DNA of 47,608 nucleotides from a virus. The translations under genes and the position numbers were made by a program. Numbering within the stretch: the first letter of the stretch is position 1; every line of letters starts with the position of its first letter. Below are positions 16,566 to 38,447 of this stretch, in pieces. The notes under the pieces are model-generated. The model ran no database searches, was not told where the DNA came from, and saw only the letters and a list, made by a program, of their open reading frames with translations. The DNA lies in IMG/VR virus record IMGVR_UViG_3300043570_000747, positions 1 to 47,608 of that record; one strand, written 5' to 3'.

Positions 16566-16581
16566 TGTGTCCTAACTCACA
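16566..16581 (+). promoter_or_regulatory. Crp/GlxR-like operator (9/10)
   Basis: TGTGTCCTAACTCACA: one mismatch from TGTGA-N6-TCACA. Centre is 65 nt upstream of the -10 centre of the promoter at 16620-16641. Confidence 0.5.
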
Positions 16582-16619: not shown

Positions 16620-16641
16620 TGTCAGTCCCCCCTGCTATGAT
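16620..16641 (+). promoter_or_regulatory. TGTCAG-type phage promoter 1
   Basis: TGTCAG (16620-16625), 10 nt ending TGC, then TATGAT (16636-16641). Leader of about 40 nt with AGAAAGG before ATG 16689. Confidence 0.75.
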
Positions 16642-16688
16642 TAAAGTATAAAGAAAGTAAGAAACTCTTACTAAGAAAGGTAGTTAAA

Positions 16689-16859
16689 ATGACTACATTG
16701 AATGAAACACTATTCAGCACTATCGTGCATGAATACCATAACGGCGGAGTAAAATCCTCTTATGGATTAGACGCTTATACTAGAAAAGAATTGTTAAGAT
16801 TTTTATTCGCTAGTAAAAATTGCAATTGCATAAATTGCTTAGAGAAAGGGTCTAACTAA
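16689..16859 (+). CDS. hypothetical protein with C-terminal Cys cluster
   Basis: 56 residues, first gene after TGTCAG promoter 1, with AAGAAAGG upstream. Ends in SKNCNCINCLEKGSN, a possible zinc-binding cluster. Coupled to the next ORF by TAATG. No family recognised. Confidence 0.6.
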   Translation: MTTLNETLFSTIVHEYHNGGVKSSYGLDAYTRKELLRFLFASKNCNCINCLEKGSN

Positions 16860-17002
16860 TGACTAACTCTATATTCGGTCAAGGTTTCGCTAGCGTTAGC
16901 GATTACCCTAGAGGTCTAATGAACCTCTGCCCATGCGGTCAGGTAGTCCTAGCACCTGCCCTATACCATGAAGGGTGTGAGGTAAAACACACCAACGCCT
17001 AA
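16859..17002 (+). CDS. hypothetical small zinc-type protein
   Basis: 47 residues: CPCGQVV...YHEGCEVKH gives possible C-C...H-C metal ligands, like a trimmed zinc ribbon. TAATG coupling with the previous gene. Its 3' end contains a Crp/GlxR-like site for the next promoter. Confidence 0.55.
   Translation: MTNSIFGQGFASVSDYPRGLMNLCPCGQVVLAPALYHEGCEVKHTNA
16976..16991 (+). promoter_or_regulatory. Crp/GlxR-like operator (9/10)
   Basis: TGTGAGGTAAAACACA, inside the end of the 47-residue gene; 56 nt centre-to-centre upstream of the -10 at 17037-17042. Codon use may explain it, so confidence is lower. Confidence 0.35.
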
Positions 17003-17020
17003 CGGCGTGTCGCTTGTAAA

Positions 17021-17042
17021 TGTCAGCCCTATCGGCTACAAT
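17021..17042 (+). promoter_or_regulatory. TGTCAG-type phage promoter 2
   Basis: TGTCAG (17021-17026), 10 nt, TACAAT (17037-17042). Followed by an unusually long leader (about 107 nt) holding a direct repeat. Confidence 0.7.
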
Positions 17043-17073
17043 TACAGCATAACAACTAAATAAGAATTAGAGC

Positions 17074-17115
17074 GTGAGCCTAGCAAATAATCCGAAAGGT
17101 GAGCCTAGCAAATAA
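17074..17115 (+). repeat. 17-bp direct repeat in a 5' leader
   Basis: GTGAGCCTAGCAAATAA occurs at 17074-17090 and again at 17099-17115 (25-bp period), within the leader of the 17157 operon. A GTG-started 13-codon ORF spans both copies, so a leader peptide is possible but unsupported otherwise. Confidence 0.6.
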
Positions 17116-17156
17116 CCGCTCAACAACCAACTAACAACTAACGAAAGGTCATAAAA

Positions 17157-17285
17157 ATGACACTAGAAGAATATAAGCAAATGGTAGAGGCTCAACGCCT
17201 TACCTCTTTAGCAATAGCGCTAGACGCTCTACGCAAATCAAATGCGATAATGGAAAACACTTTTAATTTAGAGGAGAATAACTAA
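17157..17285 (+). CDS. hypothetical helical protein
   Basis: 42 residues (MTLEEYKQMVEAQRLTSLAIALDALRKSN...), predicted all-helical. Ribosome site CGAAAGG 10 nt upstream. Coupled by TAATG to the next gene. No family recognised. Confidence 0.55.
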   Translation: MTLEEYKQMVEAQRLTSLAIALDALRKSNAIMENTFNLEENN

Positions 17286-17455
17286 TGATGACTAAATGGG
17301 ATACTATTCAGGCAGATGTAGCAGATGCTTACACTTACCTAGATGAAGAAGAGATGTATAACAAGGCACTAGAAGAGGGCGCAATAGACCTTGACGCTGA
17401 TGACTTTGATGAAGATGAATTACACAAATCACTTACACTAGATTGGGATAACTAA
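17285..17455 (+). CDS. hypothetical acidic protein
   Basis: 56 residues from ATG 17285 (a second ATG is at 17288). Very acidic C-terminal half (DLDADDFDEDELHKSL). Coupled to both neighbours by TAATG. Acidic mini-proteins of this type can act as DNA mimics or inhibitors in phages, but nothing here shows that. Confidence 0.55.
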   Translation: MMTKWDTIQADVADAYTYLDEEEMYNKALEEGAIDLDADDFDEDELHKSLTLDWDN

Positions 17456-17607
17456 TGATAGAGAACGGATTAGAATTACTACTAAGCGAATACGGATTAG
17501 AGTTAGATAGTTTCTTGGGATCTATCTACATACCTTGGCACACTATCCTAATCACTACCGCCCTACTAATCGCCTATAAGATTTATAAGAGAAAGAAGAA
17601 TAAGTAA
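17455..17607 (+). CDS. small membrane protein
   Basis: 50 residues with one membrane helix (IPWHTILITTALLIAYKIY) and a basic tail KRKKNK, so an inside C-terminus. TAATG coupling on both sides. Function unknown. Confidence 0.55.
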   Translation: MIENGLELLLSEYGLELDSFLGSIYIPWHTILITTALLIAYKIYKRKKNK

Positions 17608-17717
17608 TGACTACTAATCGCCTACTAACTACCGCCGTTCAAATAGGTATCGGAATCCCGACCTTGCTAATGTTGCGTCTTGCTATAAAAGATTTTCTAG
17701 AGAATGGATTAGAATAA
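17607..17717 (+). CDS. 36-residue amphipathic/membrane peptide
   Basis: MTTNRLLTTAVQIGIGIPTLLMLRLAIKDFLENGLE: one hydrophobic segment. Start overlaps the previous stop; the next gene starts immediately after its stop. Function unknown. Confidence 0.45.
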   Translation: MTTNRLLTTAVQIGIGIPTLLMLRLAIKDFLENGLE

Positions 17718-17912
17718 ATGAAATCGCAATTAGAAAAAGATTTAGAAATAAAAGAAAGCTTTATAGATTTACTAAATGATTGCTACCCTACTGTAAAAAT
17801 CGGTTATTCAACTTTTACTCCCGCCGAAATTTTAGAGTGTTGCGATCCTATCGCCTTTTCTATCGGACTAATTGAGCACGAAGATTATTTAGCAGAATTA
17901 GAAGATGAATAA
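17718..17912 (+). CDS. hypothetical acidic protein
   Basis: 64 residues, acidic, with FTPAEILECCDPIAFSIGLIEHEDYLAELEDE. Last gene of the operon begun at 17157; starts 1 nt after the previous stop. Pattern typical of a conserved small actinophage family, function unknown. Confidence 0.6.
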   Translation: MKSQLEKDLEIKESFIDLLNDCYPTVKIGYSTFTPAEILECCDPIAFSIGLIEHEDYLAELEDE

Positions 17913-18114
17913 ATAAAAACGGCGTGTCGACTTGACAAATCGGTGCGGCGCCCACAAGGGTGCGGCGTCGGGCGTGTCGTTATGAACTTGTTATAAAAAA
18001 CCCTGAAATTTACGGCGTGTCGATTTGACAGACAAAACGGACATATCGGTGTGATGTGATTCACACCGCTTGAGCGTCTCAGTATTTGGAATTACTGGCT
18101 AGTAAGTAGAAAAA
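17913..18114 (+). other. intergenic regulatory region with GGCGTGTCG repeats
   Basis: Contains GGCGTGTCG-type motifs at about 17929, 17971 and 18013; the first and third continue into TTGACA. A GC-rich dyad (GCGCCC-ACAA-GGGTGCG) may end upstream transcription. The same GCCCACAAGGGTG and GTCGGGCGTGTCG blocks recur near 19187-19213, and GGCGTGTCGACTTGACA recurs near 20129. Confidence 0.5.
18050..18065 (+). promoter_or_regulatory. Crp/GlxR-like operator (perfect)
   Basis: TGTGATGTGATTCACA, 10/10 match to TGTGA-N6-TCACA; centre 76 nt upstream of the -10 centre at 18131-18136. Confidence 0.65.
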
Positions 18115-18136
18115 TGTCGGTGGGTTCGTGTATAAT
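18115..18136 (+). promoter_or_regulatory. TGTCAG-type phage promoter 3 (TGTCGG variant)
   Basis: TGTCGG (18115-18120), 10 nt, TATAAT (18131-18136). Leader contains AACGAAAGAAGG before ATG 18173. Confidence 0.7.
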
Positions 18137-18172
18137 TCCATACATAACAACAAACGAAAGAAGGTGCCACCA

Positions 18173-18379
18173 ATGGCTACTAAACTATACACAATCGAAA
18201 ACCTACTTGTAGGAAAAACCTATCGCTCAAATACTCGCCACTTTTCAGGTGAGATTATTTCCGCTACGGCTCGCCCTGAAATTTGGTATGGCGAAAAAAC
18301 CGAAGCGTTTTTAATTGAAGTAAATGCTGGCGGTCTGCGAAATAAATTCGCAACTGTTGCGGTTAAGGTAGGTGAATAA
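18173..18379 (+). CDS. hypothetical beta-rich protein
   Basis: 68 residues from ATG 18173; the frame opens upstream at 18128, but that codon overlaps the -10 box, so it cannot be in the mRNA. MATKLYTIENLLVGKTYRSNTRHFSGEIISATARPEIWYGEKTEAFLIEV...; small SH3- or beta-barrel-like pattern. No family recognised. Confidence 0.6.
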   Translation: MATKLYTIENLLVGKTYRSNTRHFSGEIISATARPEIWYGEKTEAFLIEVNAGGLRNKFATVAVKVGE

Positions 18380-18381
18380 TA

Positions 18382-18507
18382 ATGGGATACATTGAAATTT
18401 TTAGAATAGATGAAGAAGGTGCTGGCTGGGTTGATTTAGCCGAAGCAACACCTGATGAATTATTTAATATTGAAATCGGATTACTAAATGAAGGGGCATT
18501 TGAATAA
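18382..18507 (+). CDS. hypothetical acidic protein
   Basis: 41 residues: MGYIEIFRIDEEGAGWVDLAEATPDELFNIEIGLL... Acidic, no Cys. Two bases after the previous stop and TAATG-coupled to the next. No family recognised. Confidence 0.5.
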   Translation: MGYIEIFRIDEEGAGWVDLAEATPDELFNIEIGLLNEGAFE

Positions 18508-18674
18508 TGTCTAAAATGAAACAATACATAGAAATAATCGCAGCAAATTGCGATGAATGCGGTGGTGCTGGATTTGTTTTTTTCGGAGACGAAAATACTT
18601 ATGATGTAGAGCCTTGCTCTTGCATAGATGAAATTTCTGATGAACTAAATGTAGATTGGGTAAATAATGTATAA
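18507..18674 (+). CDS. small zinc-ribbon protein
   Basis: 55 residues: ANCDECGGAGFVFFG...VEPCSCIDE gives CxxCGGxG...CxC, like a DnaJ-type or rubredoxin-type zinc knuckle. Overlaps the next gene by 8 bp. Function unknown. Confidence 0.6.
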   Translation: MSKMKQYIEIIAANCDECGGAGFVFFGDENTYDVEPCSCIDEISDELNVDWVNNV

Positions 18675-18870
18675 ACTAACTTGCGCCTATGATAGCAACG
18701 CTCCCCATTGGTCTGCCGAATACGAAAACGAATTCGGTGCGTGGGAAAACTTTTTCCGCTTTACCGATTGGGGAATGGCTAACGAATACTCAACTGTAAA
18801 TCTATCAACGCCAACTGGCAAAATGTATACTAAATTATTTTATCGTTCAGGAAAGGTCGTAGTAAAATGA
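18667..18870 (+). CDS. hypothetical aromatic-rich protein
   Basis: 67 residues with many aromatic residues (HWSAEYENEFGAWENFFRFTDWGM...). Overlaps both neighbours by a few bases. No family recognised. Confidence 0.55.
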   Translation: MYKLTCAYDSNAPHWSAEYENEFGAWENFFRFTDWGMANEYSTVNLSTPTGKMYTKLFYRSGKVVVK

Positions 18871-19058
18871 TGACTCGTAAAGATTATATTTCTACCGCAG
18901 AAATTCTAAACTATGTTAGCAATAAAACGCACCCTGCTGTTTTTTCTAAAATGGTAAATGATTTTGCAGAAATGTTTGCAAAAGATAATGAGCGATTTGA
19001 TGTAACAAAATTTCATGAGGCAAGTGGGTATCATGTTCCTAACTTCTCTTCAAGATAA
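18867..19058 (+). CDS. hypothetical helical protein
   Basis: 63 residues; MTRKDYISTAEILNYVSNKTHPAVFSKMVNDFAEMFAKDNERFDVTKFHEA is a familiar pattern of small actinophage proteins (two helices with an invariant-looking F...KDN..FD..+F). Starts at overlapping ATGATG; 4-bp overlap with the previous gene. Confidence 0.6.
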   Translation: MMTRKDYISTAEILNYVSNKTHPAVFSKMVNDFAEMFAKDNERFDVTKFHEASGYHVPNFSSR

Positions 19059-19164
19059 AGTAAAACGCATTCAGGAATTGCGTCGCAGTAATGCGGCGCA
19101 ACCTGTTCGCAATAAGAAAAAATATAATCGCAAGATCAAACATAAAAATAAAAATGCAGAGTAG
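19033..19164 (+). CDS. small basic protein
   Basis: 43 residues, 26-bp overlap with the previous gene in another frame. Strongly basic second half (RNKKKYNRKIKHKNKN), so likely binds nucleic acid or ribosomes. No strong ribosome site; retained because the frame is open to the operon end. Confidence 0.4.
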   Translation: MFLTSLQDKVKRIQELRRSNAAQPVRNKKKYNRKIKHKNKNAE

Positions 19165-19220
19165 CGCATAAATATGCAGCTGCGCCCACAAGGGTGGCGG
19201 CGTCGGGCGTGTCGTACGGG

Positions 19221-19236
19221 TGTGATGTAAAACACC
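19221..19236 (+). promoter_or_regulatory. degenerate Crp/GlxR-like site (8/10)
   Basis: TGTGATGTAAAACACC; the flanks make GGGTGT...ACACCC, so it may equally be an RNA hairpin. Centre 54 nt upstream of the -10 centre at 19280-19285. Confidence 0.3.
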
Positions 19237-19263
19237 CTGAAAATTTGCGTGTCGATTAGTAAA

Positions 19264-19285
19264 TGTCAGTCTGTTCTGCTATACT
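19264..19285 (+). promoter_or_regulatory. TGTCAG-type phage promoter 4
   Basis: TGTCAG (19264-19269), 10 nt ending TGC, TATACT (19280-19285), 28 nt before the GP88 start. Confidence 0.75.
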
Positions 19286-19312
19286 TGCCATTCAACCAAC
19301 GATTGGGCTCCA

Positions 19313-20032
19313 ATGAAATTAAAACGTTCTAACGATAGAAAGGTGGCTAACCTTGTCACAAAAAATGGAAAGCAAGCCGCAATTGCGAACACGTTCGGTC
19401 TCCCTGCAGGAAAAAATTATTCATGCCCTGGTGCCACTAGTATTTGTGAGAGTGTTTGCTACGCAGGCAAATTGGAAAAACTCTTCAAGGGAGTAAAAAC
19501 TAATCTGTTACACAATTGGGAATTGTTACGCAATGCAGACAATGACACAATGGTGAGATTGATCGATGAGATGATTGTTGATTTCGTTGCTGATTGTGAT
19601 AAGAAGAGTGCTCCTAAGTTATTCCGTATCCACTGGGACGGAGATTTCTTCAATGATACTTATACCTATGCCTGGAAGACTGTTATTGAAAATCATTCCG
19701 ATATTCAATTTTGGGTTTACACACGTGTAAAGTCTGCAGCGCTTATTCTTAAGGATGTATCTAATCTATCTCTTTACTATTCTACCGATGATGAAAATAA
19801 AGAAATAGGCCATGACTTAAAAGTAAATTCTGGTATCCGCCTTGCTTATCTAGGAAAAACATTCGCCGTAACTGAAAGCACAATGAAAGAGTTAACTGGC
19901 AAGCCTGGCGCTAAGTGTCCAGAGAATATGAAATCAATTCCACTTATTAGCAATGCAGGGTCCGCTTGTGTATCTTGTGGCCTATGTGTTTATGGTAAAG
20001 CAGATATTAGATTTTCTGCGAGTAAAAAATAA
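19313..20032 (+). CDS. GP88-family protein
   Basis: 239 residues. Pattern NTFGLPAGKNYSCPGATSICESVCYAG near the N-terminus and AKCPENMKSIPLI...ACVSCGLCVYG at the C-terminus match the actinophage gene product 88 family (PF17338-type). The eight or so conserved Cys residues suggest an Fe-S cluster or zinc sites; the reaction is unknown. Middle has RIHWDGDFFNDTYTYAW, a conserved acidic motif. Expressed from its own TGTCAG promoter and coupled to a membrane peptide. Confidence 0.8.
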   Translation: MKLKRSNDRKVANLVTKNGKQAAIANTFGLPAGKNYSCPGATSICESVCYAGKLEKLFKGVKTNLLHNWELLRNADNDTMVRLIDEMIVDFVADCDKKSAPKLFRIHWDGDFFNDTYTYAWKTVIENHSDIQFWVYTRVKSAALILKDVSNLSLYYSTDDENKEIGHDLKVNSGIRLAYLGKTFAVTESTMKELTGKPGAKCPENMKSIPLISNAGSACVSCGLCVYGKADIRFSASKK

Positions 20033-20127
20033 TGGCGGAGATTATTGGAACAATTCTTGCGGTTATATTATTAGCAGCTCTTATACTTCCGATTCCTGTT
20101 GCTATATGGGCAGTGTTTAGGTCTTAA
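20032..20127 (+). CDS. 31-residue membrane peptide
   Basis: MAEIIGTILAVILLAALILPIPVAIWAVFRS: a single membrane helix. ATG overlaps the GP88 stop (TAATG), so it is translationally coupled. Function unknown. Confidence 0.45.
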   Translation: MAEIIGTILAVILLAALILPIPVAIWAVFRS

Positions 20128-20174
20128 CGGCGTGTCGACTTGACAAGATCATTTTGGCCCGCAAAGGTGGCGGC

Positions 20175-20204
20175 TTATCCACAGGCTTACGGCAGTTATC
20201 CACA
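20175..20204 (+). promoter_or_regulatory. pair of DnaA-box sequences
   Basis: TTATCCACA at 20175-20183 and again at 20196-20204, each matching the DnaA-box consensus, in the intergenic space upstream of promoter 5. A third copy is at 22125 and two more are in the 28.7-kb region. Confidence 0.5.
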
Positions 20205-20218
20205 ACCCCCCCGAAAAA

Positions 20219-20234
20219 TGTGATGTTTATCACA
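20219..20234 (+). promoter_or_regulatory. Crp/GlxR-like operator (perfect)
   Basis: TGTGATGTTTATCACA, 10/10. Flanks (AAA on both sides) are not complementary, so it is a DNA-operator-like dyad rather than just an RNA hairpin. Centre 60 nt upstream of the -10 centre. Confidence 0.7.
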
Positions 20235-20267
20235 AAAGCTGCGACACACCGATAGTAGATTAGGTAA

Positions 20268-20289
20268 TGTCAGTGCCCTATGCTAAAAT
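20268..20289 (+). promoter_or_regulatory. TGTCAG-type phage promoter 5
   Basis: TGTCAG (20268-20273), 10 nt ending TGC, TAAAAT (20284-20289); leader AACAACGAAAGG. Confidence 0.75.
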
Positions 20290-20318
20290 ACTCTTATTCC
20301 AACAACGAAAGGCAACAA

Positions 20319-20543
20319 ATGACTAATCTAATAAAAGTTCCACACACAGTAGTATTCGAGGCTATTATTGATATTGATAAAGTTCCTGCAAACTTACTAC
20401 CTGCGTTAATTGCTTGTACCGAAACTCAATTACTAGAAATGTGCAAAGGCGCAACACTACACGCTCTTGCAGAGTCTAATGTATTGCAAACTGCAAATGA
20501 AAATAACACTTGGGCTGAAGTAACTATCAAGGAAGGCAACTAA
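20319..20543 (+). CDS. hypothetical protein
   Basis: 74 residues from ATG 20319; an upstream in-frame ATG at 20280 lies in the promoter itself, so it is not used. MTNLIKVPHTVVFEAIIDIDKVPANLLPALIACTETQLLEMC...; mixed alpha/beta. No family recognised. Confidence 0.6.
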   Translation: MTNLIKVPHTVVFEAIIDIDKVPANLLPALIACTETQLLEMCKGATLHALAESNVLQTANENNTWAEVTIKEGN

Positions 20544-20545
20544 TA

Positions 20546-20818
20546 ATGGGAAGCAATTTTGCAAATGATTTATCAGTAATGGATTTAGATTTAGAGGTAG
20601 CAATTGGCTATCACTTACAGGGTAATCATTACCCACCCGTTCCACTTTCTATGGTTCAACCTTGCATAGATGCTATTGACGCATACTATGAGGAAGACTA
20701 TAATAAACTAATTGAAATGCCTGAAGGCGTATTCTATCGTGGAGATAAGTTCGCTCCCGCCTCCGCTATTATTGAACAACACCACCTAGACGCTTGGCTA
20801 CCTGAAAACGATTACTGA
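20546..20818 (+). CDS. hypothetical protein
   Basis: 90 residues, acidic, beginning MGSNFANDLSVMDLDLEVAIGYHLQGNHYPPVPLSM, a pattern of small actinophage proteins. Two bases after the previous stop. Followed by an exact dyad that is also a Crp/GlxR-type site. Confidence 0.6.
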   Translation: MGSNFANDLSVMDLDLEVAIGYHLQGNHYPPVPLSMVQPCIDAIDAYYEEDYNKLIEMPEGVFYRGDKFAPASAIIEQHHLDAWLPENDY

Positions 20819-20834
20819 GATCAAAAGCTGGGCG

Positions 20835-20850
20835 TGTGAGTTATCTCACA
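20835..20850 (+). promoter_or_regulatory. Crp/GlxR-like operator (perfect)
   Basis: TGTGAGTTATCTCACA, 10/10; it also fits the GlxR form TGTGANNTANNTCACA. Extended complementary flanks (GCG/CGC) mean it could also fold as RNA at the end of the previous transcript. Centre 65 nt upstream of the -10 centre. Confidence 0.65.
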
Positions 20851-20888
20851 CGCTTGGAATCTCATATAATAAGATTGGGCTTGATAAA

Positions 20889-20910
20889 TGTCAGACCCTA
20901 ATGCTACAAT
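20889..20910 (+). promoter_or_regulatory. TGTCAG-type phage promoter 6
   Basis: TGTCAG (20889-20894), 10 nt ending TGC, TACAAT (20905-20910); 26 nt to ATG 20936. Confidence 0.75.
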
Positions 20911-20935
20911 ACTCATCTACAAGAAAGGAAGCAAA

Positions 20936-21109
20936 ATGACAATAGATAACAAAGTCTATCAGGTCGGTGATTTATTCACCACTCTGAAGTCTAAGGAAAC
21001 GGGAGTAATCAAAGAGATTATTTCCAACTCATCTGGCTCGGTGAGAGTTCGTCTGGAAACAGACAACGGAGAACGCTGGACAACAGTTCTAGCAGATAAA
21101 CTAGCCTAA
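20936..21109 (+). CDS. small beta-rich protein
   Basis: 57 residues from ATG 20936, preceded by AAGAAAGGAAG. VYQVGDLFTTLKSKETGVIKEIISNSSGSVRVRLETDNGERWTTV reads as a small SH3/KOW-like beta barrel, a shape often used to bind RNA or DNA. Function unknown. Confidence 0.55.
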   Translation: MTIDNKVYQVGDLFTTLKSKETGVIKEIISNSSGSVRVRLETDNGERWTTVLADKLA

Positions 21110-21266
21110 TCAACTAGCGAAACAGGGACAGTTTAGAGAGTATCTAGTCCAATGTCGTAAGTAAGAACTCTCTCCCTTCGGGGAAGTCCCAAAAGGCGAA
21201 ATGGGGGGACTATAAAATACCCAAAGTAGCATACCTGAGCAAGTATGGTTAAAAGGCTCAACACAA
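21110..21266 (+). other. structured 3' region / intergenic
   Basis: No gene on the plus strand. Several self-complementary parts: AGAGAGT with ACTCTCT, and the pseudoknot element at 21230-21261. A minus-strand frame (21133-21381) overlaps the next real gene and is not supported. Confidence 0.4.
21230..21261 (+). promoter_or_regulatory. CTGAG-loop pseudoknot element, copy 1
   Basis: CATAC-CTGAGCAA-GTATG forms a 5-bp stem with an 8-nt loop. Loop TGAGC (21236-21240) can pair with GCTCA (21256-21260) after an A-rich linker, giving an H-type pseudoknot. Same architecture as 21747-21775 and 42183-42211, but this copy precedes a promoter, not a start codon. Confidence 0.5.
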
Positions 21267-21288
21267 TGTCAGACCCCTCTGATATACT
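21267..21288 (+). promoter_or_regulatory. TGTCAG-type phage promoter 7
   Basis: TGTCAG (21267-21272), 10 nt ending TGA, TATACT (21283-21288). The only promoter of the set in an intergenic position without a Crp/GlxR-like site upstream. Confidence 0.75.
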
Positions 21289-21319
21289 AATCAACCAACC
21301 AACCAACGAAAGGTAATAT

Positions 21320-21736
21320 ATGTCAAGACAAATCACAGTAAAGGTAGCAACAACCAAAGTAATCAAGGCACTAGAAGGCACACTCGCTAAACTAGAGAAA
21401 GATTACACATCACAATCAGCAAATGAAGCAAAGTATAACAAGGCGGTAGAAGCGTGGCGCAAGGAAATTGGTAAGTGGGCTATTGCTAACTTCTCAAAGG
21501 CTGAAAACCTACGCACAAACTATCGCAACTGGAACAACACTCTCAATGTTGATTTTGACATCATCACAAAAGAAGGTGGGTTTCCTACTGAACCTGAAAA
21601 GGATTTTGAGGTTATCCATCAGCACACTTATCGTGAGATGAAAGAGGACATCACAAATGCCCTAACAATTCTCAAGATGACAGATGAGGAAACAGTAAAT
21701 GCTTCCACAATGAAGCAGATTGCTAAGTATCTCTAA
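21320..21736 (+). CDS. hypothetical helical protein
   Basis: 138 residues, Lys/Glu-rich and mostly helical (TTKVIKALEGTLAKLEKDYTSQSANEAKYNKAVEAWRKEIGKWAIANF). A coiled-coil segment is likely at residues 15-60. Ribosome site CGAAAGG. Recurrent in actinophages by pattern, but no function known to me. Confidence 0.65.
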   Translation: MSRQITVKVATTKVIKALEGTLAKLEKDYTSQSANEAKYNKAVEAWRKEIGKWAIANFSKAENLRTNYRNWNNTLNVDFDIITKEGGFPTEPEKDFEVIHQHTYREMKEDITNALTILKMTDEETVNASTMKQIAKYL

Positions 21737-21746
21737 ATAAATACAA

Positions 21747-21787
21747 CGACCTGAGTATGTCGCCAAACTGCTCACACCTTCGGGTGT
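21747..21787 (+). promoter_or_regulatory. CTGAG-loop pseudoknot element, copy 2, in a 5' leader
   Basis: CGAC-CTGAGTAT-GTCG hairpin (21747-21762). Loop TGAG (21752-21755) is complementary to CTCA (21771-21774). A UUCG-capped hairpin ACACC-TTCG-GGTGT follows (21774-21787, sharing one base). Lies 23-63 nt before ATG 21810, so it could act on translation of that gene. Confidence 0.6.
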
Positions 21788-21809
21788 TCCTACTAACAAA
21801 GGTAATACA

Positions 21810-22037
21810 ATGGCAAATCGTTTTAGAATAGAAATCTATGACGCAAACAAAGCAAATGATGTAACTATTTATTCAGATCAAGGTGTTGATAGAGAATACC
21901 TAAATGAATTAGTTTTTTCTAATTTGCGTAAGTTTCACGGAAGAGTAAATGCTTACGTGTATGACAATGTAAAAAAGAAAAAGGTTACAGCAATGTTCCT
22001 TGATGAAAGTATAACTAATCAGTTTCAGTTAAGATAG
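21810..22037 (+). CDS. hypothetical protein, possible target of RNA element
   Basis: 75 residues: MANRFRIEIYDANKANDVTIYSDQGVDREYLNELVFSNLRKFHGRVNAYVYD...; alpha/beta, basic. The leader holds the pseudoknot element and AACAAAGG. No family recognised; it might bind its own leader, but that is only a hypothesis. Confidence 0.6.
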   Translation: MANRFRIEIYDANKANDVTIYSDQGVDREYLNELVFSNLRKFHGRVNAYVYDNVKKKKVTAMFLDESITNQFQLR

Positions 22038-22041
22038 TCTT

Positions 22042-22080
22042 GGGGCGGAACGTCCATTAATAATTGGTTAATGCCGCCCC
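22042..22080 (+). terminator. strong hairpin after the 75-aa gene
   Basis: GGGGCGG (22042-22048) pairs with CCGCCCC (22074-22080); inner stem CATTAA/TTAATG. No U-tract follows, so it may be a transcript-end stabiliser instead of an intrinsic terminator. Confidence 0.45.
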
Positions 22081-22124
22081 ATCTTAGCTTTACTAGATAC
22101 CAAAACGCCCCCAAAGCTGCGGGG

Positions 22125-22133
22125 TTATCCACA
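22125..22133 (+). promoter_or_regulatory. DnaA-box sequence
   Basis: TTATCCACA, part of a larger dyad with CTGTGGA about 13 nt on; intergenic, upstream of promoter 8. Confidence 0.4.
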
Positions 22134-22168
22134 GCCTTACGGCTGCCTGTGGAAAACGCCCGAAAAAT

Positions 22169-22184
22169 TGTGATGATGATCACA
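22169..22184 (+). promoter_or_regulatory. Crp/GlxR-like operator (perfect)
   Basis: TGTGATGATGATCACA, 10/10 with non-complementary immediate flanks; centre 65 nt upstream of the -10 centre at 22239-22244. Confidence 0.7.
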
Positions 22185-22222
22185 CGGATCAATTCGGACA
22201 TATTGTAACTAATCCTAGACAA

Positions 22223-22244
22223 TGTCAGTGCCACCTGTTATAAT
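22223..22244 (+). promoter_or_regulatory. TGTCAG-type phage promoter 8
   Basis: TGTCAG (22223-22228), 10 nt ending TGT, TATAAT (22239-22244); leader ACCGAAAGG before ATG 22276. Confidence 0.8.
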
Positions 22245-22275
22245 AAACTAATCAACCAACCGAAAGGAAATAAAT

Positions 22276-23283
22276 ATGGCTCATAATCTAGAAATGGAAA
22301 ACGGCGAAGTTGCTTTTGCTCTTCGTGGTGCTCCTGCTTGGCATAATCTTGCCAACCGCATCTTTACAAAAGATGAGGAAGTTACAACTAGTCTAATGCT
22401 TGAAGAGGCAAAATTGGCTAATTGGAATGTTCGCTTGTCTCCACTAACTGAACACATTTCAGAATCTTGGAATGATGTATCAGATGCATCTCTTGTCATT
22501 CGTGACAACCCATTCAACAAGGGCATAGATGTTCTTGCAACTGTTGGAAAGCGTTACAAGCCTGTGCAGAATGAAGAGTTATTTGCATTTGCTGATGCTA
22601 TTCACGATGCCAATGCTGATTGCCGTTGGGAATCCGCTGGCTCATTGAAGAAGGGTAAAGTTGTATTTGGAACTGTAGATATTCCACGCACAATGGTTCT
22701 TGACCCACAAGGTGCTAACGATGAGACAAAACTTTATCTTATCGTATGGACATCACACGATGGTTCTGTTGCTGTTCAAGCAGCCGTTACACCTGTTCGT
22801 GTTGTTTGCCAAAACACATTGAATCTTGCAATGCGTAATGCAAAGCAATCTTTCAAGATTCGTCACACACAATCTGTTGAAGGTCGTATTCAGGTTGCTC
22901 GTGAGACTCTTGGTCTTGCTCTTGGTTATTTCGATGAGTTTGAAATTGAAGCAAAAGCGCTTTACTCTCAAGCAATCACCGATGCTGAATTTTCAAAGTT
23001 GATTCAGACTATTTATCCAAAGCCAGATAAAGATGCAGCAAAAGTTGCTCTAACTAAGTGGGAGAATAAGGTTGTATTGCTTGATGACCTTTATCATAAC
23101 TCACCAACTAACGCTACAATCAAGGGAACAAAGTGGGGTGCGTTCAATGCACTAACTGAGCGCCTTGATTATTTCCGTTCAGGTCGTGGCAATTCTGAAA
23201 CACTAATGGCTGGTGCATCAGGCTTTGACCCAATTCTTACCGCCGAGAAAAATAAAATTCTCAAGTTGGTAAAATCATTCTAA
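22276..23283 (+). CDS. DUF932 / TIGR03299-like phage-plasmid protein
   Basis: 335 residues. PAWHNLANRIFTKDEEVTTSLMLEEAKLANWNVRLSPL near the N-terminus, YKPVQNEELFAFADAI in the middle, then PVRVVCQNTLNLAMRNAKQSFKIRHTQSVEGRI. These follow the phage/plasmid-like TIGR03299 family (DUF932). Function unknown; common in actinophages and plasmids. It is the largest gene of the plus-strand early region, with its own promoter and a strong terminator. Confidence 0.8.
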   Translation: MAHNLEMENGEVAFALRGAPAWHNLANRIFTKDEEVTTSLMLEEAKLANWNVRLSPLTEHISESWNDVSDASLVIRDNPFNKGIDVLATVGKRYKPVQNEELFAFADAIHDANADCRWESAGSLKKGKVVFGTVDIPRTMVLDPQGANDETKLYLIVWTSHDGSVAVQAAVTPVRVVCQNTLNLAMRNAKQSFKIRHTQSVEGRIQVARETLGLALGYFDEFEIEAKALYSQAITDAEFSKLIQTIYPKPDKDAAKVALTKWENKVVLLDDLYHNSPTNATIKGTKWGAFNALTERLDYFRSGRGNSETLMAGASGFDPILTAEKNKILKLVKSF

Positions 23284-23297
23284 CAAAATGATTTGCG

Positions 23298-23327
23298 ACG
23301 GGGGAGAATAAAATCTCCCCCGTTTTC
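23298..23327 (+). terminator. intrinsic terminator
   Basis: ACGGGGGAGA (23298-23307) pairs perfectly with TCTCCCCCGT (23314-23323), loop of 6, then TTTTC. Confidence 0.85.
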
Positions 23328-23331
23328 ATTT

Positions 23332-23408
23332 GATCCATTAGCTCAGTTGGTTAGAGCGCTACCCTGTCACGGTAGAGGCCGTCGGTTCAAGTCCGATATG
23401 GGTCGCCA
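23332..23408 (+). tRNA. tRNA-Asp (GTC)
   Basis: 77 nt with encoded CCA. Acceptor GATCCAT/ATGGGTC, D-arm AGCTCAGTTGGTTAGAGC, anticodon stem-loop CTACC-CTGTCAC-GGTAG (anticodon GTC), T-arm with GTTCAAG. The only tRNA on the plus strand; the other six are on the minus strand and lack the encoded CCA. Confidence 0.95.
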
Positions 23409-23443
23409 AATAGATTTGTCGACAATGCCCGCAACCTTGCGGG

Positions 23444-23459
23444 TGTGATTTTAATCATA
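23444..23459 (+). promoter_or_regulatory. Crp/GlxR-like operator (9/10)
   Basis: TGTGATTTTAATCATA, one mismatch; centre 64 nt upstream of the -10 centre at 23513-23518. Confidence 0.5.
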
Positions 23460-23496
23460 CGGGGATCATAAAAAATCCCCTAGAAAAGATGGCAAA

Positions 23497-23518
23497 TGTC
23501 AGTGGCACCTGGTACAAT
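23497..23518 (+). promoter_or_regulatory. TGTCAG-type phage promoter 9 (leaderless)
   Basis: TGTCAG (23497-23502), 10 nt ending TGG, TACAAT (23513-23518), then 6 nt to ATG 23525, so the transcript likely starts at the start codon. Confidence 0.7.
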
Positions 23519-23524
23519 TCTCGC

Positions 23525-24145
23525 ATGAAGCAAAACTGGTTTAAATATACATACGTGTGCTCTATTTGTGATGCTCTTATTGAGATTACTAATAAAACAA
23601 ATGTATATTCACCATACATCTGCTGTAACATTGAAGCCATATGGTTGTCAGTGGTAGATGCTACAATACATCCAACCCAAACGAAAGAGGAAACAATGGA
23701 AGAGACAACAACACCTGCAGTCCCCGATACATATAACGCTAATCTACTGGTAACCTATAAGGTTATTCATGGTTACTCTGACCCTGAATATGCAACTGTC
23801 AAGGTAGCATCTCTTGAATGGGATTTGCACAATGCCCGTCAAACACAAAAGTCTAACGGCGTATTGCATTCCAAGATTGATTCAGTTAAAGATATTATTA
23901 CTGAAGCATATGCAGATTCAGATGACCAAGATACACTTCGTGCAATTGCTGAAGCGCTTGGTATTGAACTAACACGAGAAGTTGAATGGTCTGCAACAAT
24001 TGAAGTTAGCGGAACTATTTCAGTTGACTTGCTTGAAGGCGATGCAGATGTTGAGCAAGAAATCTACGACAATCTTTATGTTGATTCACAAAATGGTCAG
24101 ATTGAAATTGTCGATACTGAAGTAACGAATGTTCGTGAGAACTAA
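23525..24145 (+). CDS. fusion-like protein with nested promoter: N-terminal zinc ribbon plus acidic domain
   Basis: 206 residues from leaderless ATG 23525; a second start at 23696 (MEETTTPAVPD..., 149 residues) has its own promoter and CGAAAGAGG ribosome site. Residues 1-40 hold a zinc-ribbon-like YVCSICDALIEI...PYICC. Residues 58-206 are acidic, beta-rich and of unknown function (LLVTYKVIHGYSDPEYATVKV..., WSATIEVSGTISVDL). Both starts are in one frame with no stop between, so two nested proteins are expected. It is unclear whether the long form is made or whether a stop was lost between two former genes. Confidence 0.6.
   Translation: MKQNWFKYTYVCSICDALIEITNKTNVYSPYICCNIEAIWLSVVDATIHPTQTKEETMEETTTPAVPDTYNANLLVTYKVIHGYSDPEYATVKVASLEWDLHNARQTQKSNGVLHSKIDSVKDIITEAYADSDDQDTLRAIAEALGIELTREVEWSATIEVSGTISVDLLEGDADVEQEIYDNLYVDSQNGQIEIVDTEVTNVREN
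23646..23667 (+). promoter_or_regulatory. TGTCAG-type phage promoter 10, inside a coding frame
   Basis: TGTCAG (23646-23651), 10 nt ending TGC, TACAAT (23662-23667), 29 nt before ATG 23696. The promoter bases are also read as LSVVDATI in the long ORF. Confidence 0.7.
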
Positions 24146-24357
24146 TGTACTTTGAGTTGACTGCTCCTGATAGGCTCTCTATGGAGAGGGCCTATTGGGA
24201 TGCACAAGTAATTGGGCTAGACCCAACTGCATTATCACCGTTGACATTCAACATTGGAACTGGTAGTATTGAGAAGGTAAGCAAGATACGTGATAAGTAT
24301 AATCTAATTGAAAGTTATACTGCAGACTATGAGCCAACAGGATACACGAGGAGATAA
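24145..24357 (+). CDS. hypothetical protein
   Basis: 70 residues: MYFELTAPDRLSMERAYWDAQVIGLDPTALSPLTFNIGTGSIEKVSKIRDKYNLIESYTADYEPTGYTRR. Overlaps the previous stop by one base. Small alpha/beta protein; no family recognised. Confidence 0.6.
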   Translation: MYFELTAPDRLSMERAYWDAQVIGLDPTALSPLTFNIGTGSIEKVSKIRDKYNLIESYTADYEPTGYTRR

Positions 24358-24358
24358 A

Positions 24359-24505
24359 ATGTCAGACTATAAGGATGGATTCGATGATGGCTACAAGTTT
24401 GCCCGTGAAGAAATAATGGAAAAGCTTGCAGAGATTGATATCATGGATATCGATTCTTGGGTTCTCGATAGAATATCAGAGATGATAGAAGGCGGTAAAC
24501 TCTAA
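24359..24505 (+). CDS. hypothetical acidic helical protein
   Basis: 48 residues from ATG 24359, which follows GAGGAG; begins MSDYKDGFDDGYKFAREEIMEKLAEIDIMDIDSWVLDRISEMI. DGYxxGF/FDDGYKFARE patterns are common in phage mini-proteins. Coupled to the next gene by TAATG. Confidence 0.55.
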   Translation: MSDYKDGFDDGYKFAREEIMEKLAEIDIMDIDSWVLDRISEMIEGGKL

Positions 24506-24708
24506 TGGAAGAATTAAACAAATGGATCGGCTGCGACCAATGCAGTACTGCTCAAGCAATGTATCTAATTAAACTTATGGATGGGGAGCTAGCTTTCTGC
24601 GGGCACCATTTTAATAAGAACAAAGAGGCCCTAGACAAGGTCTCATACGAAGTGATAGAATTAAACAAGGTAGAAGAAGAAGTACCTCAACTAGAAACGG
24701 CGGAATAA
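24505..24708 (+). CDS. DUF7455-like zinc protein
   Basis: 67 residues. CDQCSTAQAMYLIKLMDGELAFCGHHFNKNKEAL follows the actinobacterial/actinophage pattern CDxCxxxA...G-x-L-x-FCGHH...L (DUF7455). CxxC plus C-G-H-H bind zinc. Function unknown, but a marker of actinobacterial origin. Confidence 0.75.
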   Translation: MEELNKWIGCDQCSTAQAMYLIKLMDGELAFCGHHFNKNKEALDKVSYEVIELNKVEEEVPQLETAE

Positions 24709-24709
24709 A

Positions 24710-25075
24710 ATGGGCGACAGAGCAAACTTTGGATTTAAAGATTCCAAGGGCGATACTATATTCCTATATGGGCACTGGGCTGGTCATGGCATGTTGGAGC
24801 GCTTAGCCAATGCTGTGTCTGCAGCAGAGCCACGGTGGACGGATGAAGCATATGCAACACGTATATGCATATCAAGAATGATTGCAGAAGACTGGAACCA
24901 AGAAACTGGATGGGGGCTCAGTGTTAATAGAATTCTAGACAATGAGCACAAGATTCCCGTTATTGACTGGTCCGCTCAAACGTTTACTTTATTTGAAGAG
25001 GACCTGACTACAGAAGTATTCAGTTTATCTTTAGATAAATTCTGTACAAAATACAGTCAACCAGTTATGGTATAA
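24710..25075 (+). CDS. conserved actinophage protein (GDRANFGF type)
   Basis: 121 residues beginning MGDRANFGFKDSKGDTIFLYGHWAGHGMLERLANAV, a recognisable start of a small conserved phage family of unknown function. The 3' end contains the promoter for the candidate RNA at 25083. Confidence 0.7.
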   Translation: MGDRANFGFKDSKGDTIFLYGHWAGHGMLERLANAVSAAEPRWTDEAYATRICISRMIAEDWNQETGWGLSVNRILDNEHKIPVIDWSAQTFTLFEEDLTTEVFSLSLDKFCTKYSQPVMV

Positions 25076-25076
25076 T
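25055..25076 (+). promoter_or_regulatory. promoter of candidate structured RNA
   Basis: TATAAT (25071-25076) with extended TGG. AGTCAA sits at the position of TGTCAG (10 nt before the -10), so it is a variant of the phage promoter (GTCA core kept). Confidence 0.6.
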
Positions 25077-25082
25077 TGAGGT

Positions 25083-25227
25083 AGGTCCAGGGACCTTCTT
25101 CATGAGTACAGGTGCGGCTACCAGGGGATCCCCCAAGTCGCTAAGCAATGCAGGGCTTTTTACTTTCGTTGGTAGATCCTAGCGGCCTTTACTTTTTAAA
25201 CCTCAGCGCAAGCTGGGGTATTTTTTT
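25083..25227 (+). ncRNA. candidate structured non-coding RNA (~145 nt)
   Basis: Begins about 7 nt after a promoter and ends in a canonical terminator. Predicted helices: GGTC-CAGG-GACC; self-complementary GGGGATCCCC; CTACCA (about 25109-25114) with TGGTAG about 60 nt on; GCNA-capped terminator stem. No ORF with a ribosome site inside. Not a tRNA or tmRNA by inspection; family unknown. Confidence 0.5.
25201..25227 (+). terminator. intrinsic terminator with GCAA tetraloop
   Basis: CCTCAGC-GCAA-GCTGGGG (7 bp with one G-U, GNRA tetraloop) followed by TATTTTTTT. Confidence 0.9.
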
Positions 25228-25291
25228 GCCCACAAAAGAATGAGGGTAACATAATCTTCTTACGAGATCAAATTAAAATGCCCTGGAATTT

Positions 25292-25307
25292 TGTGATCTT
25301 GACCACA
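25292..25307 (+). promoter_or_regulatory. Crp/GlxR-like operator (9/10)
   Basis: TGTGATCTTGACCACA, one mismatch; centre 73 nt upstream of the -10 centre at 25370-25375. A second, weaker dyad GGTGTGGAACACACC follows at 25323-25337. Confidence 0.5.
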
Positions 25308-25353
25308 ATGTGTACAAAATGTGGTGTGGAACACACCCAAAAGGTATTCCAAT

Positions 25354-25375
25354 TGTCAGTGGCAGATGTTACAAT
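25354..25375 (+). promoter_or_regulatory. TGTCAG-type phage promoter 11
   Basis: TGTCAG (25354-25359), 10 nt ending TGT, TACAAT (25370-25375); leader ATCAACGAAAGG before ATG 25403. Confidence 0.75.
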
Positions 25376-25402
25376 TAAGCCATATCAACGAAAGGATATA
25401 AA

Positions 25403-26179
25403 ATGCCAAATTGGTGTTACAACACATTAACTATCCAAGGACCTAAGTCTGAGGTAGATATGATTAAAGATAGATTGAATAAGCCATTTACATTAGCCCA
25501 AGAAACATTTGGTATGGGTGATATTTCTACTATGGGATTTCCTACTAAGATTGAACAGGTATCTTATTCTAATCCCGTTTTTTCTTTCCACAATATCCAC
25601 TCATATAAAGATGAAGGTATTACTGATGAAGAGTATGCTTGCCAGCCTTCTCGTGGCAACTATGATATTCAGAATGACCCTGATTGGTTCCGCAAGTCTG
25701 TTGAGTTTGCTAAGACTCAGAAGGATTGGTATTCTTGGAATACATCTAATTGGGGAACTAAATGGGATGTAGCCGTCCGTGACGGTGATGAATATCCAAA
25801 TACAGAATTGCTTGAAGAGAAATCAGAAGGTGATGACAACTGGGTTGTATATAAGTATGAGACTGCTTGGTCACCTGCTGTAACTATCTTAACTAAACTA
25901 TCTAATCTTGTTCCTAACTGCTTGCTTACATTAGAGTTTGAGGAAGAAACAGGTTGGGGTGGGGAATATGAGATTGTCCGTGGAGAAGTAAAAGAATTGG
26001 CTGAATGGGAGAACCGTTGCTATGCTTGCCAGTCTTTTGACACATTATCTTATTGTGAAGATGACTGCGGTGAATTCTGCTCAGAATGTAATCAAGGCTC
26101 TTGGCAGGATGAAGAGGCTATGGCTAAATGTCAGACCCATAGTGTATTATTAGAGCCTAAAGAAAAGGTGGAGGCATAA
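25403..26179 (+). CDS. Api92-like/DUF1281 protein with zinc-ribbon tail
   Basis: 258 residues. MPNWCYNTLTIQGPKSEVDMI is the signature start of the phage Api92-like family (DUF1281). WNTSNWGTKWDV and YETAWSPAVTILTKLSNLVP are also typical: substrate-like W/N motifs in a ferredoxin-like fold. The C-terminus adds a Cys-rich ribbon: CYACQSFDTLSYCEDDCGEFCSEC. Function of the family is unknown. First gene of the last early operon. Confidence 0.8.
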   Translation: MPNWCYNTLTIQGPKSEVDMIKDRLNKPFTLAQETFGMGDISTMGFPTKIEQVSYSNPVFSFHNIHSYKDEGITDEEYACQPSRGNYDIQNDPDWFRKSVEFAKTQKDWYSWNTSNWGTKWDVAVRDGDEYPNTELLEEKSEGDDNWVVYKYETAWSPAVTILTKLSNLVPNCLLTLEFEEETGWGGEYEIVRGEVKELAEWENRCYACQSFDTLSYCEDDCGEFCSECNQGSWQDEEAMAKCQTHSVLLEPKEKVEA

Positions 26180-26397
26180 TGGCAAGTTTCTTAGAAGATG
26201 TAAATCAAATGGTAATTGACGCTGTCTACCAAGATATAGCAGAACAATTACTAGAGGACTGGATTAATAATAATCTAGATGAAGGGCAGTACTATGCAGA
26301 TAAACAATTTGCAGAAATGTCAGGAGATAAATTCATACAAGATGAGTTTAATAAGTTCTATGAACTTAAAGAGGGAGATGAGGGATACATATGTTAG
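26179..26397 (+). CDS. hypothetical acidic protein
   Basis: 72 residues, acidic and helical (LEDVNQMVIDAVYQDIAEQLLEDWINNNLDEGQYYADKQF). Coupled by TAATG to the Api92-like gene; 7-bp overlap with the next gene. No family recognised. Confidence 0.6.
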   Translation: MASFLEDVNQMVIDAVYQDIAEQLLEDWINNNLDEGQYYADKQFAEMSGDKFIQDEFNKFYELKEGDEGYIC

Positions 26398-26564
26398 GCT
26401 ATACTGAATCCGATCTAAACAAAATGATTAATGCTATTCATGACGCAAAGCTTTTCTATCTTAGAACTCCTTCCGATTTAATGGATAAGACAGAACTAAG
26501 GAATGATTTAGAAATGGCTGTCAGTTTTATGCAGGGGCTATGGGCAGAAGGATACTTTGACTAA
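26391..26564 (+). CDS. hypothetical helical protein
   Basis: 57 residues: MLGYTESDLNKMINAIHDAKLFYLRTPSDLMDKTELRNDLEMAVSFMQGLWAEGYFD. Two amphipathic helices. Overlaps both neighbours. No family recognised. Confidence 0.55.
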   Translation: MLGYTESDLNKMINAIHDAKLFYLRTPSDLMDKTELRNDLEMAVSFMQGLWAEGYFD

Positions 26565-26680
26565 TGCTAATAATTAAATGCAGTGTCTGTAAATATGATG
26601 TAGATATAGACGATACAGTTGAAAGCAGGTGCAAGGTGCACTATGAAGGATATTATGGGGCAGAGGAACTTTATGTCTAA
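26564..26680 (+). CDS. 38-residue zinc-type protein
   Basis: MLIIKCSVCKYDVDIDDTVESRCKVHYEGYYGAEELYV: CxxC...CxxH spacing of a minimal zinc finger. TAATG coupling upstream and 8-bp overlap downstream. Confidence 0.5.
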   Translation: MLIIKCSVCKYDVDIDDTVESRCKVHYEGYYGAEELYV

Positions 26681-26855
26681 ATCATCAAGATTTATTGAAT
26701 ATATGAAGATACATCTAATTAGTCTTAACCAGGACTTTGACGGTAAATATAATACTGAAACTAAGATTCATATACAAGGACAAATTGACGCAACCAGGCA
26801 TTTGTTGTCAGTGGCTACTGATATAATGAACAACTCTAACGAAAGGTATGAATAA
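26673..26855 (+). CDS. hypothetical helical protein containing a promoter
   Basis: 60 residues from ATG 26673, chosen over an upstream in-frame ATG because it overlaps the previous stop in the usual style. MSKSSRFIEYMKIHLISLNQDFDGKYNTETKIHIQGQIDATRHLLSVATDIMNN...; its residues LSVATDIM are encoded by TGTCAG promoter 12. Confidence 0.55.
   Translation: MSKSSRFIEYMKIHLISLNQDFDGKYNTETKIHIQGQIDATRHLLSVATDIMNNSNERYE
26806..26827 (+). promoter_or_regulatory. TGTCAG-type phage promoter 12, inside a gene
   Basis: TGTCAG (26806-26811), 10 nt ending TGA, TATAAT (26822-26827); CTAACGAAAGG and ATG 26855 follow. Confidence 0.7.
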
Positions 26856-27136
26856 TGATGAATGCAGAAGACATTGGGCTCCCGCCCCACTTGCAACGAA
26901 TGGTCAATGCAGGTGTTAGTGGATTAGATATAATGCACGGCGAACTAAAGAATCTAATGTTGATTGCCGAAGAACAATTATCTTGGGCCATAGACGTTGA
27001 GAAAGAAACGGAAGAAGCAATGGATTCAATGGACCGCACAAGATGTGAAGGTGTCCTTGATACATTAACAGATATATATAAACTAACATATGATTTGTCA
27101 TTTGCTATAGGAGAAAGAGAAGGGCAAAAAGTATGA
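26855..27136 (+). CDS. hypothetical helical protein
   Basis: 93 residues, start at 26855 or 26858. Largely helical and acidic (LKNLMLIAEEQLSWAIDVEKETEEAMDSMDRTRCEGVLDTLTDIYKLTYDLSFAI), possibly a helical bundle. Has its own promoter and ribosome site. No family recognised. Confidence 0.6.
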   Translation: MMNAEDIGLPPHLQRMVNAGVSGLDIMHGELKNLMLIAEEQLSWAIDVEKETEEAMDSMDRTRCEGVLDTLTDIYKLTYDLSFAIGEREGQKV

Positions 27137-28607: not shown

Positions 28608-28712
28608 TATAGGCAACATATACTTAGTTGGTTAGTATATAAATATCTGAACGAAATAGATTGAAATAGATCTAAAGTATTACTCAGATATAGCCCAAAT
28701 TATCCACAGGTT

Positions 28713-28734
28713 ATCCACAGCCTGTGGATTTTTT
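28713..28734 (+). terminator. intrinsic terminator overlapping DnaA-like boxes
   Basis: ATCCACA-GCC-TGTGGAT followed by TTTTT; 105 bp after the stop of the 140-residue gene. Confidence 0.7.
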
Positions 28735-38146: not shown

Positions 38147-38447
38147 TTTTAGCCCTAATCTTTTTCCAAAATTCTGGTGTCTTGTGTAGATTTCTTGTCT
38201 TATCAATGGATCCAGAATTTAAGTAAATTCCTCCCCATACTCCTTGCTCATCATTTTCCACTCCCGCCTGGTAACACATTTTTGAAACTGGACAACTAAA
38301 ACAAGCCTCATCAATACTTTTTGCTATGTTAACATCTGCTTCATACTTATCGTAGAATAAATTAGTATCCATTCCTCTGCATATTCCCAGATGGAACCAA
38401 TCTAGATCATCTTGATCTACACCTAATTCATTTAAAATGTTTGACAT
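38130..38447 (-). CDS. WhiB-family Fe-S transcription factor
   Basis: 105 residues from ATG 38447; an upstream in-frame start at 38489 is inside the previous gene. Four cluster Cys: C23 (GICRGMD), C49 and C52 (EACFSCPV), C58 (MCYQAGV), then the G-V-W-G-G turn at residues 69-73 that identifies Wbl proteins. These act with the principal sigma factor in actinobacteria, some sensing oxygen or NO. A phage WhiB can redirect host transcription or block septation (as in mycobacteriophage TM4). Here it is a candidate factor for the promoters lacking a -35. Confidence 0.9.
   Translation of the reverse strand: MSNILNELGVDQDDLDWFHLGICRGMDTNLFYDKYEADVNIAKSIDEACFSCPVSKMCYQAGVENDEQGVWGGIYLNSGSIDKTRNLHKTPEFWKKIRAKNGIHK

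Follow-up and report, generated by a model that had tools for sequence, protein, structure and literature searches.

The window analysed here is the whole of the IMG/VR virus record IMGVR_UViG_3300043570_000747 (47,608 nt), a phage sequence in which a cassette of small genes is preceded by an array of closely similar promoter-like sites. Each of these has the form TGTCRG-N10-TAnnnT, in which a box (R being A or G) is separated by exactly 10 nt from a hexamer of the -10 type. A preliminary description of this DNA had recorded 12 such sites on the plus strand and regarded them as a distinct class of phage promoter; all 12 proved to be real and correctly spaced, but a thirteenth, at 26129, had been overlooked. 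All 13 lie within 16.6-26.8 kb and share one orientation. On the strength of sequence comparison, we consider it likely that they are promoters of the RecA-NDp type, dependent on the activator PafBC, by means of which the phage would run its small-gene cassette with the DNA-damage machinery of its host.

The signal resides in the fixed pairing of the box with the -10 hexamer, since the bare TGTCAG is present at chance level in the window (25 observed against 22.9 expected) and the 10-nt spacing is unique. When the distance from TGTCRG to TAnnnT was scanned from 0 to 25 nt, 13 matches were found on the plus strand at 10 nt and only 0-2 at any other value. The comparison with shuffled sequence that the preliminary description had proposed came out in favour of the array: the exact form TGTCAG-N10-TANNNT, sought on both strands, has 13 matches (12 on the plus strand and an unrelated one on the minus strand), as against a mean of 0.72 and a maximum of 3 in 100 dinucleotide shuffles. 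Two further copies of the box, at 24360 and 27351, were rejected as promoters because both lie within ATGTCAG start codons.

The genes behind these sites belong in large part to recurrent families, found in up to 82 contigs; these and the following counts from other viruses come from a scan of IMG/VR with one strict form of the motif and are counts among the matches listed. The array begins with TGTCAG-N10-TATGAT at 16620-16641, in front of an open reading frame (ORF) of 56 amino acids at 16689 (family in 45 contigs), and continues with TGTCAG-N10-TACAAT at 17021-17042, which has a long leader and an ORF at 17157. The single variant box, TGTCGG-N10-TATAAT at 18115-18136, precedes an ORF beginning at 18164 or 18173, whose family is the one found in 82 contigs. 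The remaining sites all carry TGTCAG, so that only their -10 hexamers need be given: 19264-19285 (TATACT), before the GP88 gene (19313-20032); 20268-20289 (TAAAAT), before ORF 20319 (family in 38 contigs); 20889-20910 (TACAAT), before ORF 20936 (53 contigs); 21267-21288 (TATACT), before ORF 21320-21736 (43 contigs); 22223-22244 (TATAAT), before the DUF932 gene (22276-23283); 23497-23518 (TACAAT), before ORF 23525; 23646-23667 (TACAAT), which lies inside the preceding ORF and has an internal start at 23696; and 25354-25375 (TACAAT), before an ORF of the DUF1281_C/Api92-like type (25403-26179). The added site, 26129-26150 (TATTAT), overlaps the 3' end of this last ORF and stands 28 nt ahead of the start of ORF 26179-26397, whose family has this promoter in 17 contigs. 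The series ends with 26806-26827 (TATAAT) and ORF 26855-27136.

A TGn motif precedes the -10 hexamer in 10 of the 13 sites, in agreement with the 10 of 12 reported earlier. The start codon lies 25-36 nt 3' of the -10 in 10 of the 13, and most of these ten leaders contain a Shine-Dalgarno-like GAAAGG or AAGG. At the other three sites the distance is 47 nt (16620), 114 nt (17021) and 6 nt (23497). Because the ATG is only 6 nt from its -10, the site at 23497 probably gives rise to a leaderless messenger RNA of ORF 23525.

The preliminary description was right to speak of a promoter class, and the same arrangement recurs in other viral contigs. In the IMG/VR loci 509 sites have the 10-nt spacing as opposed to 4-83 at other spacings, and in loci recovered with a composite pattern, which combines the box with an upstream operator of the CRP/GlxR type (TGTGA-N6-TCACA), the figures are 394 and 3-99; secondary peaks at 5 and 15 nt are mostly by-products, the same sites being read in another register. 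Forty-four records contain 5-25 sites each, nearly all on one strand, against 0-4 matches to the reversed pattern. Of the 1,001 sites, 837 (84%) are followed by an ORF that has a Shine-Dalgarno-like sequence or starts without a leader, with a median gap of 31 nt from the -10 to the start codon. A 51-kb contig with 25 sites carries a divergent version of the array, in which the spacers often begin with TGG and mostly lack TGn.

As these loci had been selected by the motif itself, orthologues of two cassette genes were additionally collected by protein, as an independent test. The promoter was found within 120 nt 5' of the start codon in 80 of 80 DUF932 orthologues and in 74 of 80 GP88 orthologues, and the reversed box in none of either set of 80. 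The alignment of the DUF932 upstream regions shows TGTCAG, the -10 and TGTGA...TCACA to be conserved, with variable spacers between them. This footprint bears out the earlier view that the box, which is too close to the -10 to be a -35 element, is likely to be the site of an activator acting beside sigma. Forty of the 80 GP88 orthologues have their start codon 7 nt beyond the -10, so that leaderless transcription is likely there; the others have a gap of 25-28 nt.

The closest match to these sites is a bacterial one. A paper on mycobacterial PafBC (PMC5656591) gives tTGTCRgtg - 8 nt - TannnT as the consensus upstream of DNA-damage genes that are independent of LexA and RecA. It agrees box for box with the sites in the window, having the same box, the same spacing and the same -10, and the R at its fifth base accounts for the one TGTCGG in the window. 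The RecA-independent DNA-damage promoters are activated by PafBC (PMC8223512; PMC11804915). It acts with the housekeeping sigma factor, makes no -35 contact and sits between the promoter DNA and domain 4 of sigma-A, PafB reading a motif at -26 and PafC touching sigma; it is switched on by single-stranded DNA (ssDNA) held in its WYL domains, and without RNA polymerase it did not bind promoter DNA (PMC11804915). Such an insertion between DNA and sigma explains a box that lies too near the -10 to be a -35.

In their main sequence features, namely TGTCRG, 10 nt to TAnnnT and no -35, the phage sites agree with RecA-NDp promoters such as recA P1 of mycobacteria, and their dependence on PafBC is predicted from this likeness. 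Unlike these bacterial promoters, they form an array before consecutive small genes, their -10 is stronger and extended, they are often accompanied by a phased CRP-type site, and no LexA-like GAAC-N4-GTTC box was found in the window. The promoter type is thus a known one; what appears to be new here is its occurrence as arrays in phages and its pairing, as promoter of a sigma adaptor, with CRP-type sites. A limited search of the open-access literature found no account of PafBC promoters in phages or of such a CRP pairing.

The WhiB gene of the phage, its low GC content and its promoter type indicate that it probably infects Ca. Nanopelagicales, a group of tiny aquatic actinobacteria. Nine genomes of this group were reached through a 16S signature, among them LanE43, the host of isolated Planktophila phages (PMC10202952). 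ORFs with WYL domains are present in eight of the nine, mostly as adjacent pairs; the LanE43 pair finds its best PDB matches in PafB and PafC (7p5x/9fnd/6sj9; E about 1e-35 and 1e-29), and at one candidate-host locus the pair is followed by an ORF read as TatC. The recognition helix of PafB has two outward arginines (PMC6789036). The segment RMFERDK, which we take for this helix, is identical in all the candidate-host PafB copies looked at and in the PafB of M. smegmatis. Moreover, recA is preceded by TGTCAG-N10-TACCTT, directly followed by a LexA-like box, in all seven Nanopelagicales genomes tested. The presence of the PafB and PafC genes together with this recA promoter means that the candidate hosts own both the activator genes and the promoter type. 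In two Nanopelagicales genomes TGTCRG-N10-TAGAAT lies 46 nt before an ORF resembling carD, a possible further host target of PafBC. In LanE43, pafB directly follows an ORF resembling the transfer RNA (tRNA) methyltransferase that elsewhere flanks the Pup-proteasome locus; PafBC has apparently been kept there, with the proteasome genes missing at this place.

The preliminary description had overlooked a second feature, the CRP/GlxR-type operators (TGTGA-N6-TCACA) that are found, helically phased, upstream of many boxes. Nine such sites with at most one mismatch are present in the window, and eight of these begin 45-65 nt before a box. Three are placed 54 nt ahead, namely TGTGTCCTAACTCACA (16566-16581; one mismatch) before the box at 16620, TGTGAGTTATCTCACA (20835-20850) before 20889 and TGTGATGATGATCACA (22169-22184) before 22223; TGTGATTTTAATCATA (23444-23459; one mismatch) is 53 nt before 23497. 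The distance is 45 nt for TGTGAGGTAAAACACA (16976-16991; one mismatch) and the box at 17021, 65 nt for TGTGATGTGATTCACA (18050-18065) and 18115, and 62 nt for TGTGATCTTGACCACA (25292-25307; one mismatch) and 25354, whereas TGTGATGTTTATCACA (20219-20234), 49 nt before 20268, is off the main phase. Two weaker palindromes, each with two mismatches, are TGTGATGTAAAACACC (19221-19236), 43 nt before the box at 19264, and TGTGGTGTGGAACACA (25320-25335), 34 nt before that at 25354.

Among 396 non-redundant promoters, 183 have a CRP-type site within 80 nt of the box, and the density of such sites upstream of boxes is 17-fold that of the same contigs overall. Their distances to the box peak at 34, 44, 54, 64 and 75 nt, a rhythm of 10-10.5 bp; the Rayleigh z at a period of 10.0 is 92 for the 183 sites, 32 for the 55 least similar ones and 35 in the composite-scan set, in which distances are limited to 32-62 and which partly overlaps the first. 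All 80 DUF932 orthologues have the site at 54 nt. The composite pattern occurs in at least 120 stretches, as against 14 with the box reversed, several of which are array-bearing contigs themselves. The placing of these sites on one face of the helix suggests protein-protein contact with the polymerase, by analogy with class I CRP promoters. Like those promoters (the E. coli lac type) and the GlxR/CRP sites of actinobacteria, the phage sites consist of an upstream TGTGA-N6-TCACA repeated at helical turns, and the candidate hosts have a candidate protein for them: seven of the nine encode a single cyclic-nucleotide-binding protein, most similar to the CRP of M. tuberculosis (E 1e-79), with the recognition helix SRETV. 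The classical class I centres form the -61.5 series; those assumed for the phage, at about -54, -64, -74, -84 and -95, are some 3 bp off it, and the partner of the phage site is a PafBC-type box rather than a -35. No CRP-type site was found at the candidate-host recA, so that the pairing of box and CRP site is seen on the phage side only.

A plausible sequence of events can be put together from these elements. Infection would yield ssDNA, either as phage replication intermediates or as broken host DNA, and this would bind host PafBC. The activated PafBC would then be placed between the promoter and region 4 of sigma-A, PafB reading TGTCRG (about -28 to -23), and the -10, which is strong and in many cases extended, would be opened by RNA polymerase. 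Roughly half of the promoters may receive additional, cyclic AMP (cAMP)-dependent activation in the manner of class I CRP, from a dimer of the CRP/GlxR type that would sit on a single helical face at a distance of one to several turns upstream. We favour, with distinctly less assurance than PafBC dependence as such, the idea that the cassette is governed by a two-input host switch, in which ssDNA-activated PafBC and, in about half of the cases, a phased and presumably activating CRP would let it track damage or replication together with cAMP, with no phage regulator. A WYL gene had no match in the 45 phage records, the window included, a negative that is suggestive only, as many of them are fragments.

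Several points weigh against this interpretation. The base before the box is A in 65% of the sites and T in 31%, the published base being t. After the box comes T in 66% and then G in 50% or C in 41%, and the dinucleotide there is often AC or TC, where the published portion of the consensus has TG; the flanks of the box at recA in the candidate hosts show similar variation. Since the -10 and TGn come close to consensus, some of the promoters may fire at a basal level without PafBC. The host assignment gains little from the phage tRNA-Asp, which has matches of up to 86% in 281 of 297 actinobacterial genomes and does not discriminate between hosts; Planktophila is near the top of the ranking, not first, which is not decisive. 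Nor is the array a general feature of actinophages, since it is absent from all seven isolate actinophages that have related DUF932 genes (0-3 sites per genome); a megablast search of the array region against named phages gave no match. Finally, an unrecognised phage factor is possible, given that the records are of unstated completeness and many are fragments.

Such a factor, be it the WhiB-like protein suggested by the preliminary description or some other early protein, could bind TGTCAG beside sigma in the manner of MotA, its likeness to PafBC being convergent. We regard this as unlikely. The position of the box and the dispensable -35 would fit an appropriated sigma, many cassette proteins have no assigned function, and a WhiB-like gene is present (38226-38399, minus strand). 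But this gene lies outside the array, and just 15 of the 45 records that bear the array yielded a WhiB gene. Many of the 45 are fragments, but some long ones (60,950 and 98,133 bases), perhaps themselves incomplete, also gave none; WhiB as the binder of the box was accordingly rejected. No other candidate regulator was recognised among the window ORFs. The phage sites also match exactly, spacing included, the damage promoter of the candidate host itself. The analogy with T4 middle promoters, where MotA and AsiA appropriate sigma, holds for the layout, in which the place of the -35 is taken by an activator box whose end is 10 nt from the -10, but not for the sequence of the box or for the activator, presumed here to be the host's: no MotA- or AsiA-like family was detected among the window ORFs scanned with Pfam, a scan that does not cover divergent proteins or genes beyond the contig.

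It is very doubtful that these are plain extended -10 promoters, with TGTCAG a passive sequence and regulation exerted only by the CRP-type site where there is one. TGn and a near-consensus -10 at most sites would suit this explanation, but in the orthologues the box varies no more than the -10, in contrast to the spacer, and the box is also found at promoters that have no CRP site.

Still less credence can be given to the view that the array is mainly a decoy, titrating PafBC (and CRP) off host genes. One phage record, with its 5-25 matches, does rival an entire candidate-host genome of 1.3-1.5 Mb, where the counts of the pattern are near those of the reversed control; however, 84% of the 1,001 sites precede an ORF with a Shine-Dalgarno-like or leaderless start, the promoter is conserved gene by gene, and PafBC without RNA polymerase did not bind promoter DNA (PMC11804915). 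Operators of a repressor, oriented with transcription, are equally hard to credit. The stoperators of mycobacteriophage L5, with the 13-bp consensus GGTGGMTGTCAAG, are likewise asymmetric, one-directional, multiple phage sites containing TGTCA, but the window sites are preceded by A-rich sequence and not by the GGTGG half, they stand at a fixed distance from a -10, neither an integrase nor a repressor domain was recognised among the window ORFs scanned, and the L5-type identity was rejected because the consensus is not enriched in the window (15 occurrences at up to 3 mismatches against 14.9 expected).

If PafBC dependence is correct, these phages take the damage response of actinobacteria as a positive cue for timing, infection is predicted to activate PafBC, and a phage may time its own genes by the DNA-damage alarm and the nutrient state of its host. 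One phage cassette would then hold more PafBC-type sites than can be clearly recognised in a whole host genome. The approximately 1,000 promoters of this type would constitute a natural library for defining what PafBC reads, and the motif would help to link uncultured phages, by their sequence, to actinobacterial hosts that bear PafBC.

Elsewhere in the window, the ORF at 44752-46554 is 65% identical to the terminases of Streptomyces phages such as Francob, Gilson and Kenrey, and there are seven tRNA genes. Within the array region, 25051-25220 holds the promoter AGTCAACCAGTTATGGTATAAT and, after it, a conserved non-coding stretch, possibly a small RNA. This element has homologues in about 20 array-bearing loci, at roughly 68-100% identity, with the consensus AGTCRACTAGTTATGGTATAAT. 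The preliminary description had seen the same box here, at 25055, in an AGTCAA variant; the homologues carry AGTC(A/G)AC(T/C)A-N8-TATAAT and never TGTCAG, and this AGTCRAC element hence marks a separate conserved promoter. Between the operons of the array are repeated GC-rich blocks (gcgcccacaagggtg-ggcgtcgggcgtgtcg and cggcgtgtcgacttgaca; 17915-17990, 19170-19215 and 20129-20150), perhaps terminators or a further element. Clusters of TTATCCACA, which we take to match the DnaA-box consensus, occur near cassette promoters (20166-20200 and 22128-22150) and after the cassette (28690-28730), and could correspond to a replication origin or to DnaA binding.

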